64,000 nucleotides of DNA from Hymenobacter sedentarius (GTDB lineage Bacteria; Bacteroidota; Bacteroidia; Cytophagales; Hymenobacteraceae), in NCBI RefSeq assembly GCF_001507645.1, contig NZ_CP013909.1:4278001-4342000 (forward strand), written 5' to 3'. Below, in pieces: positions 20,708 through 61,347 of this stretch; the first letter of the stretch is position 1, and each line of letters opens with the position of its first letter. The notes beneath the pieces were generated by a model that made no database searches, was not told where the DNA came from, and saw only the letters and a list, made by a program, of their open reading frames with translations. The position numbers were made by a program, and so were the translations under genes.

Positions 20708-20772
20708 CTAAATTCGCCTAAACACTCACCCGATACCATGACGATTATCAAGCCTGGACTTGATGCATGTTA
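20708..20772 (-). promoter_or_regulatory. Crp/Fnr-like tandem operator and promoter for Usp1
   Basis: TGACGATTATCA at 20739-20750 and the degenerate TGATGCATGTTA at 20761-20772, starting 22 bp apart. A weak -7-like box GAATTTAG (minus strand, 20715-20708) sits where the other promoters of this set have a TTTG-ending box. This is the weakest of the six pairs, since both the outer site and the box are imperfect. Confidence 0.6.
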
Positions 20773-25684: not shown

Positions 25685-27154
25685 TTAGGCGGTCGGCACG
25701 GGCCCGGTTGGGCTGGCCATCAGGTGGAGGTGGTTGTTCACGTCGCGGGCGCCGCACTCCAGGGCTTCGGCCGCGGCGCGGCGGCGCTCCAGCCACGTTT
25801 CCACGGTGCCGGTGAGGGTCACCCGGCCTTCACGCACCGCAATTTTGATGTCCTGGTCGTGGAGCAGCGCCGACCAGTAATAGCGGTGGCGCAGGCGCTG
25901 CGCCAGCACATGGTCGGGCACGGGCCCCGAAGCCGTAGGCACCGGAGTTTCGTCCGTTTCCGTTGCGGCCAAAGCCAGCTCGGCTGGTTCCTCATTGGCC
26001 GCCGCCAGCTCCAGGCAGTTCACCAACTCCACCACGCCGCTGGAGCTGGCCACGATTTCCTGCGCCCGCTCCAGCTCGAAGTGCGACGCGACGGTGCCGT
26101 AGAGCTGGGCCTTGCCGTTGTACACGTTCACCGTGAAGCTGTACTGGCTTAAAAACGAATCGGAAGCCAGGGCATCCTTAATCTGCTGCTGAATGCGGCC
26201 ATCGGGCGAGGGAAACTGCCCCCGCACCTGCAGCAAGTCGTTCACGCCCCACACGCCCACCACGTTGGCGGCGTCTTGTTCGGCGGCGTGGCGGGCGCGC
26301 AGGTTGCCCACGGTGCCCAGCAGCGTCACCACGCCATCGCGCACGTGCACCTGGGGCTCAAAGGCCTGCACGCGCGGGTCAAGCCGCAGGGTGTCGCGCA
26401 CGGCCTCGGCCACGGCTTCGTCGGCCTTGGGCGCAAACTTCTGCCGCCGCAGCTCCTTGTCGAGGGCCCAGTAGGCCACCACCAGGTCGCGGGCATCTAC
26501 GCGGTGGGCACCGGCCATGTGGGCCGTGGCCACCGCCTGCTCGTGCTCGGCGGCCGTGCCTACCGTGCCGGAGAGGTGCACCACGCCCTGCTCAGTGCGA
26601 ATGTCGACCAAGGGACTCTTCACGCGGATGTCCCAGTCAAGTAGCTCGCGCACTTGCTTGGTAATGTCTTCGTCGGAGATTTTCACGCCGCCATCCTGCA
26701 CGGTGAGGTGGTTGTCTACCTGCCGCACCCCGGGCACGCCGGTGAGCACGCGCAGCACCAGCTGCGATTCGGCCCAGGTTTTCACGGTGCCTTCCAGCCG
26801 CACGTGGCCGTTGTGGGCGTAGCACTGCACCGGGTAGTCGCCGGCGGCCGGGTCCAGCTGCAGGGCCTGCTCCGCCCGCTGCTTGAGTTCGGCGTCGGGC
26901 ACATCGGGCGTGCGAATGCCAATGTCGGCGATGACGCCGCGCACGCCGCGCACCGCTTTGGCAATGGCCACGGCGCGCTCGCGCGAAAGCAGGCTGTCGG
27001 TGAAGCCCACCAGCTCCACAATGCCCGCCCGGCACTGGGTATGGAGTAGGCTCGAACACACCCCTTTTTTGAGCAAAAGCAGCTCCACCGCCGCCATGAT
27101 GTCGGCGTCGGCCAGGCGTTCTTCCCGGGCCTCCGAAGAAGGGAGCGTAGTCAT
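25685..27154 (-). CDS. Cytoplasmic protein of six BON domains (BON-a)
   Basis: 489 residues composed of six BON domains of about 65-70 residues, each with the pattern 'alpha - xVxVxxGxVxLxGTV - alpha - GVxxVxNxLxV', for example GHVRLEGTVKTW, GVVTLLGTVGNL and GRVTLTGTVETW. I chose ATG 27154 over a GTG ten codons upstream because domain one begins right after it. There is no signal peptide or membrane helix, unlike OsmY. BON domains bind phospholipid or oligomerise. Two paralogues are in this window (42472, 49393). It is second in an operon behind the 36-residue membrane protein and before Usp3. Confidence 0.9.
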   Translation of the reverse strand: MTTLPSSEAREERLADADIMAAVELLLLKKGVCSSLLHTQCRAGIVELVGFTDSLLSRERAVAIAKAVRGVRGVIADIGIRTPDVPDAELKQRAEQALQLDPAAGDYPVQCYAHNGHVRLEGTVKTWAESQLVLRVLTGVPGVRQVDNHLTVQDGGVKISDEDITKQVRELLDWDIRVKSPLVDIRTEQGVVHLSGTVGTAAEHEQAVATAHMAGAHRVDARDLVVAYWALDKELRRQKFAPKADEAVAEAVRDTLRLDPRVQAFEPQVHVRDGVVTLLGTVGNLRARHAAEQDAANVVGVWGVNDLLQVRGQFPSPDGRIQQQIKDALASDSFLSQYSFTVNVYNGKAQLYGTVASHFELERAQEIVASSSGVVELVNCLELAAANEEPAELALAATETDETPVPTASGPVPDHVLAQRLRHRYYWSALLHDQDIKIAVREGRVTLTGTVETWLERRRAAAEALECGARDVNNHLHLMASPTGPVPTA

Positions 27155-27430: not shown

Positions 27431-27495
27431 CAAAAATGCTTTCTCAGCCCATCAATTGCCTTGACCACTATCATGCGCCCCCTTGATTTTCCTCA
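27431..27495 (-). promoter_or_regulatory. Crp/Fnr-like tandem operator and promoter
   Basis: Perfect TGA-N6-TCA sites at 27462-27473 (TGACCACTATCA) and 27484-27495 (TGATTTTCCTCA), starting 22 bp apart. On the minus strand the box CATTTTTG (27438-27431) ends 31 bp beyond the inner site, putting that site near -41, the usual class II activator position. Drives the 36-residue protein, BON-a and Usp3. The whole block is repeated at 61251-61315. Confidence 0.8.
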
Positions 27496-40246: not shown

Positions 40247-41361
40247 GAATCCTGCTGTTTCTGCTGCGCAAGGAGTTCCGCCAGATGTTCCGCGACCGGA
40301 GCATCCTGGCCCTGATTTTCCTGATGCCCACTGTGCAGCTCCTCATCCTGCCCCAGGCCGCCAACTACGACGTCAAGAACATCAACCTGGCCCTCGTCGA
40401 CCACGACCACAGCAGCTACTCCCGCGAGCTGACGCGCAACATCACGTCCTCGGGCTACTTCCGCCTGGTCGGGGCCAGCGCCTCATACCAGGAAGCCTTG
40501 CACCTTATTGAGGACAGCCAGGCCGACATCGTGCTGGAAATCCCGCGCGGCTTCGAGCGCAACCTCGTGCGCGAAGGCACGCAGCAGGTGGCCGTGGCCG
40601 TCGATGCCATCAACGGCACCCGGGCCGCGCTGGGCGGCGCCTACCTCACGCGCATTATCTCCGACTACAATAGCGATGTGCGCCTGCAGTGGCTCGGGCC
40701 GGGGCCCGCGCGCGGCGCGACGGTTATCGACGTGGCTGCTATTAACTGGTACAATCCGTTGGGGCGCTACTACGTGTTTATGGTGCCGGCCATCCTGGTG
40801 CTGCTGCTCACGCTGGTGGGCGGCTTCCTGTCGGCCCTCAACATTGTGCGGGAAAAGGAGCTCGGCACCATCGAGCAGCTCAACGTGTCGCCCATCAAAA
40901 AATGGCAGTTCATTTTGGGCAAGATGATTCCGTTCTGGCTGCTGGGGCTGCTGGTGTTCACCATCGGGCTGCTCATTGCGCGCGGGGTCTACGGCATCGT
41001 ACCGGTGGGCAGCCTGGGCACGCTCTACCTGTTTGCCGCGGTGTACCTGGTGGCGATTTTGGGCTTTGGCCTGCTGATTTCCACCTACAGCGAAAACCAG
41101 CTGCAGGCCATGTTCGTGGCCTTCTTCTTCATCATGATTTTCACGTTGATGAGCGGCCTGTTCACTTCCCTCGACAGCATGCCCGCCTGGGCCCGCGTCC
41201 TGGCCAACCTCATCCCCCTCACCCACTTCATCGAAGTAGTCCGCCTGATTATCCTGAAGGGCAGCGGCCTGGCGGAGGTATCGCGCCAGCTGGGCTACGA
41301 AGCCCTTTTCGCCGTTGTGCTCAACACCTGGGCCATCCTGAACTACCGCAAAACCACCTAG
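40243..41361 (+). CDS. ABC-2 type permease 2 (YbhS/YbhR-like)
   Basis: 372 residues, same layout as the preceding permease: KEFRQMFRDRSILALIFLMP at the N-terminus, periplasmic domain, and NIVREKELGTIEQLNVSPIK before the last helices. Start ATG overlaps the previous stop (ATGA). Last gene of the efflux operon; the next gene is convergent 26 bp away. Confidence 0.93.
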   Translation: MRILLFLLRKEFRQMFRDRSILALIFLMPTVQLLILPQAANYDVKNINLALVDHDHSSYSRELTRNITSSGYFRLVGASASYQEALHLIEDSQADIVLEIPRGFERNLVREGTQQVAVAVDAINGTRAALGGAYLTRIISDYNSDVRLQWLGPGPARGATVIDVAAINWYNPLGRYYVFMVPAILVLLLTLVGGFLSALNIVREKELGTIEQLNVSPIKKWQFILGKMIPFWLLGLLVFTIGLLIARGVYGIVPVGSLGTLYLFAAVYLVAILGFGLLISTYSENQLQAMFVAFFFIMIFTLMSGLFTSLDSMPAWARVLANLIPLTHFIEVVRLIILKGSGLAEVSRQLGYEALFAVVLNTWAILNYRKTT

Positions 41362-41387
41362 CTGCCGCTGCGCTACCGCAAACCCAC

Positions 41388-42131
41388 CTAACGGTTCTTG
41401 GCAAGCGGCGTCGCAATGGTGAGTAGAAAGACCGATTCTTCCCGGGCCGTGACACTGTGCGGAATACCGGCATGCAGCGACACCATCTGGCCCTCGGTTA
41501 GCTCGGCTGTTTGCTGCTCGGTGTGGAAGGTGACGTGCCCTTCCACCACCTGCACGGAAATGGGGCCCGGGGCGGTGTGCTCCTTGAGCTGCGCGCCGGG
41601 CTGCAAGGCGAGGAGCAGGATGCGCAGGCCTTCGCTTTTGAGCAGCGTGATGGAGTTGCGGTCGCTGGTGTGCCAGGCCGGCTCCTCCTTTATCTGTTTG
41701 CGCAGGGCCAGCAGGTCCATCGTCACCATGGGCGCATCCAGGTAGCGCGTGCCTTCGGGGCGTTGCGGCGTGGCCACGTTGACCTTTTCGGCCGTTGCGG
41801 TGTCGCGGCCTTGCGTGGCACTTCGCTGGGCTTTTTCTGCCAGGGTTCGCACCATGGCATCGGCCATTTCCTCGCTGTAGATGCCGTAGCCATTCACCAG
41901 TGTGCCCTTGACGCCGTGCTTGGGGGAGGAAATAGCGTACACAATGGCTTCGTCGCCGGGGTCCGACGTGCCTTCGAAGCGGTAGTGATGGTCAACTTCG
42001 AACTCGTCGGGGTGCACGCGCAGGTCGTTGTTGGGGTCTACCAGGTAGCCTTCGGCGAGATTGAAGTCGACGGTGTAGCCTTTGCTTTTCAGATGGTTGA
42101 GTACCTCCGAAACGGTATTCATGGGGTCCAT
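41388..42131 (-). CDS. Fusion of a small Bacteroidota domain with a cupin
   Basis: 247 residues in two parts. Residues 4-100 match a short protein often (mis)named phosphoribosylpyrophosphate synthetase in Bacteroidota, with LKSKGYTVDFNL, HPDEFEVDHHYRFEG and AIVYAISSPKHGVKGTLVNGYGIYSE (quoted in parts). Residues 140-245 are a single cupin domain (LQPGAQLKEHTAPGPISVQV, HAGIPHSVTA). It faces the six-BON gene and shares the bidirectional Crp/Fnr-like promoter at 42215-42310; the predicted leader is about 80 nt. Role unknown, possibly redox or metal sensing by the cupin. Confidence 0.75.
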   Translation of the reverse strand: MDPMNTVSEVLNHLKSKGYTVDFNLAEGYLVDPNNDLRVHPDEFEVDHHYRFEGTSDPGDEAIVYAISSPKHGVKGTLVNGYGIYSEEMADAMVRTLAEKAQRSATQGRDTATAEKVNVATPQRPEGTRYLDAPMVTMDLLALRKQIKEEPAWHTSDRNSITLLKSEGLRILLLALQPGAQLKEHTAPGPISVQVVEGHVTFHTEQQTAELTEGQMVSLHAGIPHSVTAREESVFLLTIATPLAKNR

Positions 42132-42214
42132 GGCAATTTGGAATAGGGGCTCTAGCGGCAGTTAGCCCAACATTTTAGAAAAGCGAGGTTCGCCTGGCAC
42201 CGGCAATGAAGGAT

Positions 42215-42310
42215 CAAAGGTGGGCTTTTGTTGGTGCCGCGGCCATGACAGAAATCAAGCGCCCCCGTGATTGGTATCATTACTTAAAAAGCCGGAAAAG
42301 CACACTTTTG
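42215..42310. promoter_or_regulatory. Bidirectional Crp/Fnr-like tandem-operator promoter
   Basis: Perfect TGA-N6-TCA sites at 42246-42257 (TGACAGAAATCA) and 42268-42279 (TGATTGGTATCA), 22 bp apart. On the plus side CACTTTTG ends at 42310, 31 bp beyond the right site. On the minus side CACCTTTG ends at 42215, 31 bp beyond the left site. The symmetry means the same pair can activate BON-b to the right and the cupin fusion to the left. Confidence 0.82.
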
Positions 42311-42471
42311 AGGCGATAAATAAGCTCATTTGGCAGTTGATTTATACCCTTGTCAATCAATGGCTTATTTATGATAATTTTCCTATTCAGTTCAAGCCGG
42401 GTTTCTCATTGGGCCACGGCCGGGCACTCGGCATTGCTGGCCCTATCTGCTCGCTTTATTGCTCCCTTACC

Positions 42472-43920
42472 ATGCGTACGCAACCTGCTCCCCTGGCTGT
42501 GGAAGAACGGCTGGCCGACCACGACATCAAGCAGGCCGTTGAGCGGCTGTTCAAGCTGAAGAAAGGCGTGCAGGCCAACCTGCTGGAAGTCGCCTGCAGG
42601 GAAGGCATTGTGGAACTGACCGGGCTAACCGACAGCCTGCTCTCGCGCCAGCGGGCCGAAGATTTGGCCAAAGCCGTGCGCGGGGTGCGGGGCGTAATCA
42701 ATGAAATCAGCGTGCACACCGCCGACTTACCCAACGCCGAGCTACTGTGCCGGGTCGAAATTGCCCTGATGCAGGACCCGGCCACGCGCGGCTACAAAGT
42801 GTGCTGCCACACCCACGACGGCCAGGTGACGGTGGAAGGCACGCTGCAATCCTGGGCCGAAGAGCAGCTGGTGCTGCAAGTGCTCAAGGGCGTGCCGGGC
42901 GTGCGCCAGCTCAACAACCGCCTCACTGTGCGCGGGGCCAGCCTGCCGAAATCGGACCAGGACATCACCGCCCTCATTCAGGAGCTGCTGGAATGGGACA
43001 TCCGGGTGAAGAGCGACCTGGTGCACGTGCGCACCACCAAAGGCGAGGTGCACCTCTCCGGCACGGTGGGCACCGCCGCCGAGCACGACCAGGCCGTGGC
43101 CACCGCCTACGTGGCCGGCGCCACCCGCGTAGACGCCACCGAGCTGCAAGTGGCCAGCTGGGCCCTGGACAAAGAGCTGCGCAGCGAGAAAAACCAGCCC
43201 AAGGCCGACGCGGATGTTGCCCAGGCCATCCTGGACGCGCTGCGCTTTGACCCGCGCGTGGACGAGCAGCCGCTGGAAGTGCACGTGCACAACGGCGTGG
43301 CCACGCTGCTGGGCACCATCGGCAACCTGCGTGCCCGCGACGCCGCCGGGCAGGACGCCGCCAACGTGGTGGGCGTGGGCACCGTGCACAACCTGCTGCA
43401 GGTGCAGCACCTGCACCCTTCCCCCGATTCCATCATCCAGGAGCACGCCCAGGCGGCCCTGGCCCACGATGCCTACCTCGGCCGCTACGCCTTCACCCTG
43501 GCCGTGAAGGAGGGCAAAGTGGAGCTCTACGGCACCGTGGGCTCGCACTATGAGCAGGAGCGGGCGGCAGAAGTAGTGGCCGGCGTAAACCACGTAGCCG
43601 AAGTAGTGAACCACGTGGTGCTCTACGACGCCGAGAACGAGGTGCCGGAGTCCCCGCTCCCATCCGACACCGTGGTGACGGCGCCCGAGTCGCTGGGCCA
43701 CCTGGAGCCCGACGACGTGCTGAAGGACCGCATTCGCACCCACTTTTATTGGTCGGCGCAGCTGCACGACCAAGACATCAGCGTGAGCGTGCACGATGGC
43801 CGCGTCACGCTCACCGGCACCGTAGATTCGGCCCTGGAGCGCCGCCAGGCCGCCGCCGAAGCCCACGCCTGCGGGGCCGTGGAAGTGAACAACCACCTGA
43901 ACGTGCGGCCGGCCGCGTAG
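42472..43920 (+). CDS. Cytoplasmic protein of six BON domains (BON-b)
   Basis: 482 residues with six BON domains in the same order and with the same linkers as BON-a, for example GQVTVEGTLQSW, GEVHLSGTVGTA, GVATLLGTIGNL, GRVTLTGTVDSA. I chose ATG 42472 (MRTQPAPLAVEERLADHDI) rather than any start nearer the operators because the domain match begins there; this leaves a leader of about 155 nt. No signal peptide. Closest paralogue is BON-a (shared VGTAAEH.QAVATA and GNLRAR.AA.QDAANVVGV). Confidence 0.9.
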   Translation: MRTQPAPLAVEERLADHDIKQAVERLFKLKKGVQANLLEVACREGIVELTGLTDSLLSRQRAEDLAKAVRGVRGVINEISVHTADLPNAELLCRVEIALMQDPATRGYKVCCHTHDGQVTVEGTLQSWAEEQLVLQVLKGVPGVRQLNNRLTVRGASLPKSDQDITALIQELLEWDIRVKSDLVHVRTTKGEVHLSGTVGTAAEHDQAVATAYVAGATRVDATELQVASWALDKELRSEKNQPKADADVAQAILDALRFDPRVDEQPLEVHVHNGVATLLGTIGNLRARDAAGQDAANVVGVGTVHNLLQVQHLHPSPDSIIQEHAQAALAHDAYLGRYAFTLAVKEGKVELYGTVGSHYEQERAAEVVAGVNHVAEVVNHVVLYDAENEVPESPLPSDTVVTAPESLGHLEPDDVLKDRIRTHFYWSAQLHDQDISVSVHDGRVTLTGTVDSALERRQAAAEAHACGAVEVNNHLNVRPAA

Positions 43921-45895: not shown

Positions 45896-45992
45896 CAAAG
45901 GTGGGCCAATTGGGGATGTCAACGGCATGATACAAATCAATTGACGCTTTGATTTTTCGCATGGGGCCCGGCCCTAAAACAGTAGAAATTGC
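45896..45992. promoter_or_regulatory. Divergent Crp/Fnr-like tandem-operator promoter
   Basis: TGATACAAATCA (45928-45939, perfect) and TGATTTTTCGCA (45950-45961, right half GCA instead of TCA), 22 bp apart. Minus side: CACCTTTG (45903-45896) ends 32 bp beyond the left site, towards DUF1003-ldhA. Plus side: GAAATTGC (45985-45992) ends 31 bp beyond the right site, towards Usp4-ppsA, and its start point near 45998 argues for the Usp4 ATG at 46023. Confidence 0.7.
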
Positions 45993-58620: not shown

Positions 58621-58685
58621 CAAATTTCTTATTTACAAGTCACTAATTCCATGATGATTATCAAGCCCCAAGATGACTTGTCTCA
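58621..58685 (-). promoter_or_regulatory. Crp/Fnr-like tandem operator and promoter
   Basis: Perfect sites TGATGATTATCA (58652-58663) and TGACTTGTCTCA (58674-58685), 22 bp apart; minus-strand box GAAATTTG (58628-58621) ends 31 bp beyond the inner site. Resembles the Usp1 promoter at 20739, with which it shares CCATGAyGATTATCAAGCC. Drives DUF2892-YtxH-Hsp20-Usp6. Confidence 0.8.
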
Positions 58686-61066: not shown

Positions 61067-61180
61067 CTAGCTTGGGTGGGAAGTGCTGCGCACCCGCGCC
61101 CCCAGCATGGCCAGGGAAACCACGGCCAGGTACACAAGGGCCAGCGGTACCAGCGCCAGCCAAAACGATGTAGTAACCAT
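61067..61180 (-). CDS. 37-residue single-pass membrane protein
   Basis: Starts MVTTSFWLALVPLALVYLA, continues through one hydrophobic helix and ends GARVRSTSHPS. About two-thirds of residues are shared with the 36-residue protein at 27250-27360, and differences are mostly conservative or synonymous, which supports selection on the protein. First gene behind the promoter at 61251-61315, leader about 67 nt as in the paralogue. Confidence 0.75.
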   Translation of the reverse strand: MVTTSFWLALVPLALVYLAVVSLAMLGARVRSTSHPS

Positions 61181-61250: not shown

Positions 61251-61347
61251 CAAAAATGCATTTTGAACCTGTTCCCTGCCTTGACTACTATCATCCCCCG
61301 CCTTGATTTTTCTCATCCTCCGCCCGCGTATGCCCCGCCGGTCTTTG
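61251..61347. promoter_or_regulatory. Crp/Fnr-like tandem operator, probably bidirectional
   Basis: Perfect sites TGACTACTATCA (61282-61293) and TGATTTTTCTCA (61304-61315), 22 bp apart. Minus side: CATTTTTG (61258-61251) ends 31 bp beyond the inner site, towards the 37-residue protein, Usp8 and Usp7. Plus side: GGTCTTTG (61340-61347) ends 32 bp beyond the outer site, towards the ATPase pseudogene at 61434. Confidence 0.75.

Follow-up and report, generated by a model that had tools for sequence, protein, structure and literature searches.

A mirror-symmetric pair of Crp/Fnr-type operators in Hymenobacter sedentarius, predicted to be a shared activator site for two divergent class II promoters

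The intergenic region described here separates a cupin gene from a divergent BON-domain protein gene of Hymenobacter sedentarius, within a stretch of 64,000 nucleotides that was analysed as a whole and is called the window. Two operators and two promoter boxes occupy positions 42215-42310 between the genes (Table 1). Direct reading of the sequence gives TGACAGAAATCA for operator 1 and TGATTGGTATCA for operator 2, both of them 12-bp palindromes of the TGA-N6-TCA type, with centres at 42251.5 and 42273.5 and hence 22 bp from centre to centre. On the cupin side the pair is flanked by the minus-strand box CACCTTTG and on the BON side by the plus-strand box CACTTTTG, with 23 bp of bare DNA between operator and box on either side. 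The operator pair and the box pair have a common midpoint at 42262.5. An earlier note on this DNA had described the boxes as mirror-symmetric around the operator pair, and this holds to the base, with the correct coordinates; the 31 bp that it gave for each side is right as the distance from the operator edge to the outer box edge (23 + 8). The BON-domain gene lies in a longer reading frame that starts at 42271 and contains six BON stretches. Its preferred ATG was picked by eye, on the resemblance of the resulting N-terminus to the other two BON genes. An Rfam scan of 41000-43600 found no family at the gathering threshold.

Table 1 Features of the divergent promoter region and other tandem operator pairs in the window (window coordinates; promoter assignments and starts are predictions)
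Feature	Position	Strand	Remark
Operator 1, TGACAGAAATCA	42246..42257		predicted -41.5 site for the cupin direction, -63.5 for the BON direction
Operator 2, TGATTGGTATCA	42268..42279		predicted -41.5 site for the BON direction, -63.5 for the cupin direction
-7 type box CACTTTTG, BON-domain gene	42303..42310	+	gap 23, as in the box-blind sample
-7 type box CACCTTTG, cupin gene	42215..42222	-	gap 23
Predicted transcription start	42315	+	inferred: last G of box + 5, box position from PMC9723704 (accessible part)
Predicted transcription start	42210	-	inferred by the same last-G + 5 rule, PMC9723704 (accessible part)
BON-domain protein gene	42472..43920	+	preferred ATG 42472
Cupin gene, C-terminal Cupin_2 domain, 247 aa	41388..42131	-	domain search
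Tandem operator pair, same set	20739..20772		degenerate box GAATTTAG on the minus side
Tandem operator pair	27462..27495		minus-strand box CATTTTTG, gap 23
Tandem operator pair, between DUF1003 (-) and Usp (+) genes	45928..45961		
Tandem operator pair	58652..58685		minus-strand box GAAATTTG, gap 23
Tandem operator pair	61282..61315		minus-strand box CATTTTTG, gap 23

The surrounding island (window 19802-63583) contains nine universal stress protein genes and three BON genes, together with genes for PEP synthase, Hsp20 and a D-2-hydroxyacid (lactate-type) dehydrogenase. The operator pair at 27462-27495 lies upstream of the second BON gene (25685-27154, minus strand), and the one at 58652-58685 precedes a small gene, whose YtxH match is below threshold, and an Hsp20 gene. 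Another divergent tandem pair of the window lies at 45928-45961. Its boxes, with positions read by eye, are displaced by one base from the mirror position: CACCTTTG on the minus strand at gap 24, and on the plus strand at gap 22 the imperfect box AGAAATTG. Shortly after the promoter at 61282 there is a 37-codon frame, MVTTSFWLALVPLALVYLAVVSLAMLGARVRSTSHPS (61067-61180, minus strand), which is absent from the gene calls and likely encodes a small membrane protein.

Promoters of Bacteroidota carry a -7 box, TAnnTTTG, and Crp/Fnr activators of class II promoters are centred at -41.5. Judged by their letters, CACTTTTG and CACCTTTG are both shaped like the -7 box. Mapped starts in Flavobacterium psychrophilum put the box at -12 to -5, according to the accessible part of the source (PMC9723704). 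If the boxes of H. sedentarius occupy the same position, transcription would start at the sites predicted in Table 1 and the operators would be at -41.5 and -63.5 in both directions. The class II criterion, a site centred near -41.5, is then met on both strands, with starts that are themselves inferred. The predicted minus-strand start falls within the range of 42208-42212 named in the earlier note. The first letter of the box is T in only 14 of the 43 genus cases with a gap-23 box (first sample), and we infer that this rarity is the expectation for promoters that need an activator.

The window has 8 copies of the motif TGAYNNNNRTCA where 1.38 are expected, and none of 100 shuffles reaches 8; spacers of 5 and 6 in place of 4 showed no enrichment in the window. 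The window has six tandem pairs (12 rows, each pair being found on both strands), while 20 first-order random sequences gave 0-3 rows. An operator followed after 23 bp by CANNTTTG has four exact matches in the genome of 4.87 Mb, all of them in the window, and two of these are the two halves of the 42215-42310 site. Allowing one mismatch adds three more, one in the window, one 976 bases past its end and one elsewhere. Operator pairs with up to one mismatch number eight genome-wide, and six of the eight are found within one 44-kb stretch (4298739-4342987), in the window or 1 kb beyond it. In the intergenic DNA of the window NANNTTTG occurs at a rate of ~0.0009 per position, so that a second box at the exact mirror position would arise by chance in about 1 of 1000 cases.

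In an operon that starts about 1.1 kb beyond the window, a kinase gene is followed by a gene for a receiver-Crp fusion. Pfam assigns PAS, HisKA and HATPase_c domains to the kinase. The fusion regulator (C1:4344653-4345708, ~2.7 kb past the window, 352 aa) combines Response_reg, cNMP_binding and HTH_Crp_2 in one protein. Just upstream of the kinase's preferred start the operon has an exact paired operator of its own (4342954-4342987), with an imperfect box, CACGATTG. The best PDB match of the kinase PAS domain is a FixL structure in which the haem histidine is aligned, and FixL is the name of 7 of the 10 matches listed. The haem-ligand column contains histidine in all 21 PAS sequences compared, which come from the H. 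sedentarius genome, 3 genus relatives and the 17 of 20 class relatives with a PAS match; no PAS match was found beside the regulator gene in 3 of these 20. The distal arginine of FixL is aligned in the H. sedentarius kinase and kept in 15 of the 21 sequences overall, and an IIGIGRE stretch is present in five class PAS sequences. In its domain make-up, a PAS domain with a haem-ligating histidine plus HisKA/HATPase, the kinase conforms to the FixL family. In the fusion protein, residues D9, D52 and K104 of the receiver and E317 and R321 of the recognition helix are invariant in all 52 aligned rows, which represent 51 loci because the H. sedentarius protein was entered twice. A conserved cysteine at position 51, next to receiver D52, is the only cysteine of the H. 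sedentarius fusion protein. None of the best 25 of 101 NCBIfam models matching this protein reaches its cut-off, the FixK model scoring 69.9 bits against a cut-off of 300 and the Fnr model 91.5 bits against 228.

The layout recurs throughout the genus, for which we used a sample of 101 genomes. Pairs spaced by 22 bp, with boxes ignored, number 214 in 85 of the 101 genomes, and the reversed control was found in a single genome. A control spacing of 23 bp gave 67 pairs in 42 of the 101 genomes, which makes 22 bp a preference, and the notion of an absolute spacing was dropped. Gaps were counted in all 75 listed of the 214 pairs; removal of 7 near-duplicates left 68 pairs with 136 sides. On these sides NANNTTTG stands 47 times at gap 23, 6 times at gap 24 and 7 times at the remaining gaps taken together. 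The box is present on at least one side in 47 of the 68 pairs, of which 41 are one-sided and 6 strictly two-sided. With about 10 two-sided pairs expected if sides were independent, there is no excess of two-sidedness in the 68 genus pairs, and we no longer regard it as a separately selected trait. The symmetry looks instead like a consequence of divergent genes sharing one pair. When the second site was ignored, an operator site with its box was present in 95 of the 101 genomes; the reversed control also gave scattered matches here, 1 to 3 in a minority of genomes. In a distal-blind sample of 30 such loci, one per genome, a second site with at least 5 of 6 letters lies at -22 in 15 loci, and no other spacing between 13 and 59 has one in more than a single locus. 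At -22, two more loci match in 4 of 6 letters; in one locus the site is at -23, and 12 have none. Most of these 12 follow the apparent end of a Crp gene (ETLSRLR; by eye), which implies that a second set (L140-L169) exists in which an operator and a gap-23 box occur without a second site.

The complete mirror pattern (24 letters, up to 3 mismatches) was found in 49 of the 101 genus genomes, with 0 matches of the reversed control in all 101. In the sample of 395 genomes of the class Bacteroidia, mirror promoters (22 letters, up to 1 mismatch) are present in 63 genomes and in 37 of 196 genera, again with 0 in the reversed control. By these counts the mirror layout is not a chance arrangement. 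The earlier proposal, in which the site proximal to one promoter is the distal site of the opposite one and vice versa, has the support of three tests at the sequence level, transcription being unmeasured: the gap-23 boxes beside pairs chosen blind to boxes, the second site at -22 in the distal-blind sample, and the recurrence of the two-sided form in the class. One class locus (L198:1280-1335) has three operators with a 22-bp period, the third matching 5 of 6 letters, and gap-23 -7 boxes on both outer sides; it is a divergent promoter that shares only the middle site.

Gene names in the genus contexts of the mirror, beyond the window proteins, were read by eye from translations. Partners that face each other across the mirror include a CcoI/FixI-like P-type ATPase and a truncated-globin neighbourhood, the kinase-regulator operon and a small gene, a lactate-dehydrogenase-like gene and either Usp/BON or a P-type ATPase, and BON and an ABC transporter; a HemA-like gene is also among the contexts. 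The counterpart of the small gene in the H. sedentarius genome has no Pfam or NCBIfam match. Across the class, a kinase match lies within ~1.5 kb of the mirror in 9 of 28 examined loci and is followed by the fusion regulator in 6 of the 9. Such varied contexts mean that the architecture recurs in unrelated gene pairs.

Comparison with the closest relative found, Hymenobacter sp. BT770, bears on whether both directions are used at the H. sedentarius locus. The two genomes are 85% identical over 417 bases of the stretch, 97% identical in the regulator and 96% in the cupin ortholog. In BT770 operator 1 is identical, operator 2 has one A-to-G change that remains within the consensus, and the BON-side box is kept, as CACCTTTG. 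The core of the cupin-side box is broken (CAACTTCG), which speaks against the idea, now abandoned, that the cupin side is equally constrained. The whole cupin protein was found in one relative only (BT770) by a genome scan that reaches close relatives only; two genus loci show ~50% identity over 109-120 residues of it. It is conceivable, although we think it unlikely, that only the BON direction is regulated and that the site is a one-sided tandem class II promoter with an incidental or decayed box on the cupin side. The retention of the operators and the BON-side box in BT770 alongside CAACTTCG would fit such a promoter, as would the predominance of one-sided over two-sided pairs in the genus (41/68 versus 6/68). 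The cupin-side box of H. sedentarius is, however, a full match at the exact gap, a coincidence of ~1 in 1000, and the two-sided form recurs in 63/395 class genomes with none in the reversed control.

The presence of the fusion regulator and that of the sites are statistically associated. For the genus, presence was scored as a best match below 1e-100; one of the 78 positive genomes has a split gene, and one fragment genome was set aside. The mirror occurs in 47 of the 78 genomes with the fusion and in 2 of the 22 without (p = 1.8e-5), and the number of pairs per genome is 2.51 with and 0.82 without it (p = 1.3e-6). For the class, where a match at E <= 1e-45 assigned the fusion to 197 of 395 genomes, the mirror is present in 56/197 genomes with the fusion versus 7/198 without (p = 1.9e-12). 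The co-occurrence and pair-count statistics ignore phylogeny, and nine mirror genomes, 2 in the genus and 7 in the class, lack the regulator at the thresholds used. In 15 of 20 class genomes the mirror and the fusion gene are within 2.8 kb of each other, and in the other five they are 7-17 kb apart. These 20 have both on one contig among the matches listed, with one mirror each, and are not an unbiased sample. Outside the genus, a search of 335,725 bases around 20 regulator genes, drawn from 52 non-genus genomes, gave 15 exact pairs with the 22-bp spacing, while every other spacing from 13 to 40 had no more than 1; with one mismatch the numbers are 34 versus 0-7.

A single Crp/Fnr gene in the genome, as suggested by the one protein found with PF13545, was an assumption that we dropped, since PF00027 reveals six cNMP proteins. 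One further protein among these, encoded by a stand-alone gene (C1:2156002), has a Crp-like helix. That the sites are bound by this stand-alone protein, or by both proteins, and not by the receiver fusion appears quite unlikely to us. Its C-terminal helix, GITPESLSRVRR, also has the E..SR pattern and is a similar ...PESLSRVRR helix, and in other genomes single sites of the same sequence type serve as promoters after apparent Crp gene ends, the gene ends being recognised by eye. The pairs and mirrors nevertheless track the fusion gene, cluster around it and include its own operon, whereas the stand-alone gene is ~2.2 Mb away and its HTH goes undetected by PF13545.

We consider it probable that the operator pair is an activator site shared between two divergent class II (Fnr/FixK-like) promoters, with the fusion regulator as the likely activator. 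The sites, their spacing and recurrence, the domain make-up of the regulator and its co-occurrence with the sites can be read from the DNA and protein sequences alone. Two Crp/Fnr-type activator dimers would bind the operators as neighbours, facing much the same side of the double helix. The dimer nearest each -7 box, at -41.5, would contact RNA polymerase, and the other dimer, at -63.5, could hold the C-terminal domain of the polymerase alpha subunit; polymerase contact and activation of transcription are inferred in the absence of transcription and binding data. Since the pair is centred between the two boxes, the roles of the dimers would swap for the opposite direction. Two polymerases could then stand back to back with starts ~105 bp apart, and activity in both directions is likewise an inference. 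The activator would most likely be the receiver-cNMP-HTH_Crp fusion, which we infer to bind this DNA and to be phosphorylated by the adjacent FixL-like PAS kinase. By analogy with FixL, low oxygen would switch the regulator on, an expectation that presupposes oxygen sensing, haem binding and inhibition of the kinase by oxygen, all of them inferred. Predicted targets to be induced are stress-protein, BON, cupin and metabolic genes in H. sedentarius and CcoI-like, truncated-globin-like and HemA-like genes in relatives.

An arrangement in which one site represses, so that the distal dimer blocks or exchanges the polymerase of the other direction and the locus is a toggle and not a site of co-activation, is one to which we give little credence. 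It has a precedent in bidirectional promoters of E. coli, where, according to the accessible part of PMC12825309, activating one direction tends to repress the other. Those promoters share one -10, whereas here the boxes are separate and the starts would be ~105 bp apart, from which we infer that the presence of one polymerase need not shut out the other. Chance resemblance in AT-rich intergenic DNA has only the shortness of the motifs in its favour and can be set aside with near certainty in view of the shuffles, the genome matches, the recurrence in genus and class and the box-blind and distal-blind tests.

FixJ consists of a receiver with a LuxR-type output and turns on fixK. The best reading of the present system is a shortened FixL-FixJ-FixK pathway made up of a kinase, a receiver-Crp fusion and tandem operator pairs. 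In the FixL-FixJ-FixK system the sites are TTGA-type palindromes, and the targets include cco genes, genes of haem synthesis and the operon of the regulator itself (PMC4999443, accessible part). In common with that system of Alphaproteobacteria there is a haem-PAS type kinase, a Crp/Fnr regulator without an Fe-S cysteine motif, sites that are TTGA-type palindromes, and cco, haem-synthesis and own-operon targets, as far as the genes of relatives can be assigned by eye. In contrast to it, receiver and FixK-like part are joined in a single protein, with one cascade step missing, and the Hymenobacter operators are often tandem pairs with a preferred spacing. The fusion protein falls outside the definition of FixK (cNMP plus HTH_Crp and no other domain) by its N-terminal receiver, outside that of Fnr (4Fe-4S cysteines) by having one cysteine only, and outside that of FixJ (receiver plus LuxR-type HTH) by its cNMP_binding and HTH_Crp_2 output. 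On this reading the system works in the manner of FixK/Fnr class II activation, but by definition the protein belongs to none of FixK, Fnr and FixJ.

Class II Crp/Fnr promoters of E. coli have an activator at about -41.5 and a second dimer upstream, as predicted here. The Hymenobacter promoters differ from them in that the Bacteroidota -7 box takes the place of -10/-35, a spacing of 22 bp is preferred for the second site, and the same operator pair can serve two divergent genes. In E. coli bidirectional promoters the starts share one -10, with common distances of 18, 10 and 23 bp (PMC12825309, accessible part). One pseudo-symmetric element serves both directions there and in our proposal, but here the symmetric element is an activator site and not a -10, and the predicted starts are ~105 bp apart; the shared -10 criterion is not met, as there are two separate boxes. 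In F. psychrophilum, cbb3 oxidase and haem synthesis are raised under oxygen limitation, according to the accessible part of PMC9723704, in whose main text the terms 'Fnr', 'Crp' and 'FixL' do not appear. Searches of open-licence literature, judged by titles and abstract beginnings, yielded nothing on a receiver-Crp fusion with FixL in Bacteroidota or on mirror operators of this kind.

A broader proposal remains tentative, and we regard it as possible but not yet probable: that this is an undescribed oxygen-response system of the whole class Bacteroidia, with a FixJ-FixK fusion as the substrate of a FixL-type kinase. Phosphorylated receivers on two adjacent Crp-type dimers would pair, so that activation would need the tandem operator of 22-23 bp; this geometry would let the pair be used from either end, and divergent genes would use it as a two-way switch. 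The analysis provides a testable cis code and a candidate oxygen-response regulator across a large class, with a fusion match in 197 of 395 genomes. Confirmation would show that a cascade was shortened by gene fusion and that two divergent genes can depend on one activator pair with no conflict between polymerases.

Two minor variants were seen in the genus. Tandem pairs with an AT-rich spacer and a box at gap 24 occur at three loci (L083, L098 and L108), one of them (L098) in a genome that lacks the fusion regulator (G024). Additional copies of the fusion gene, apparently broken by a stop codon or present as fragments, are found at G043:C9:96788, G066:C1:8948-9947 and G052:C1:6013925, and the genomes concerned also hold intact ones.
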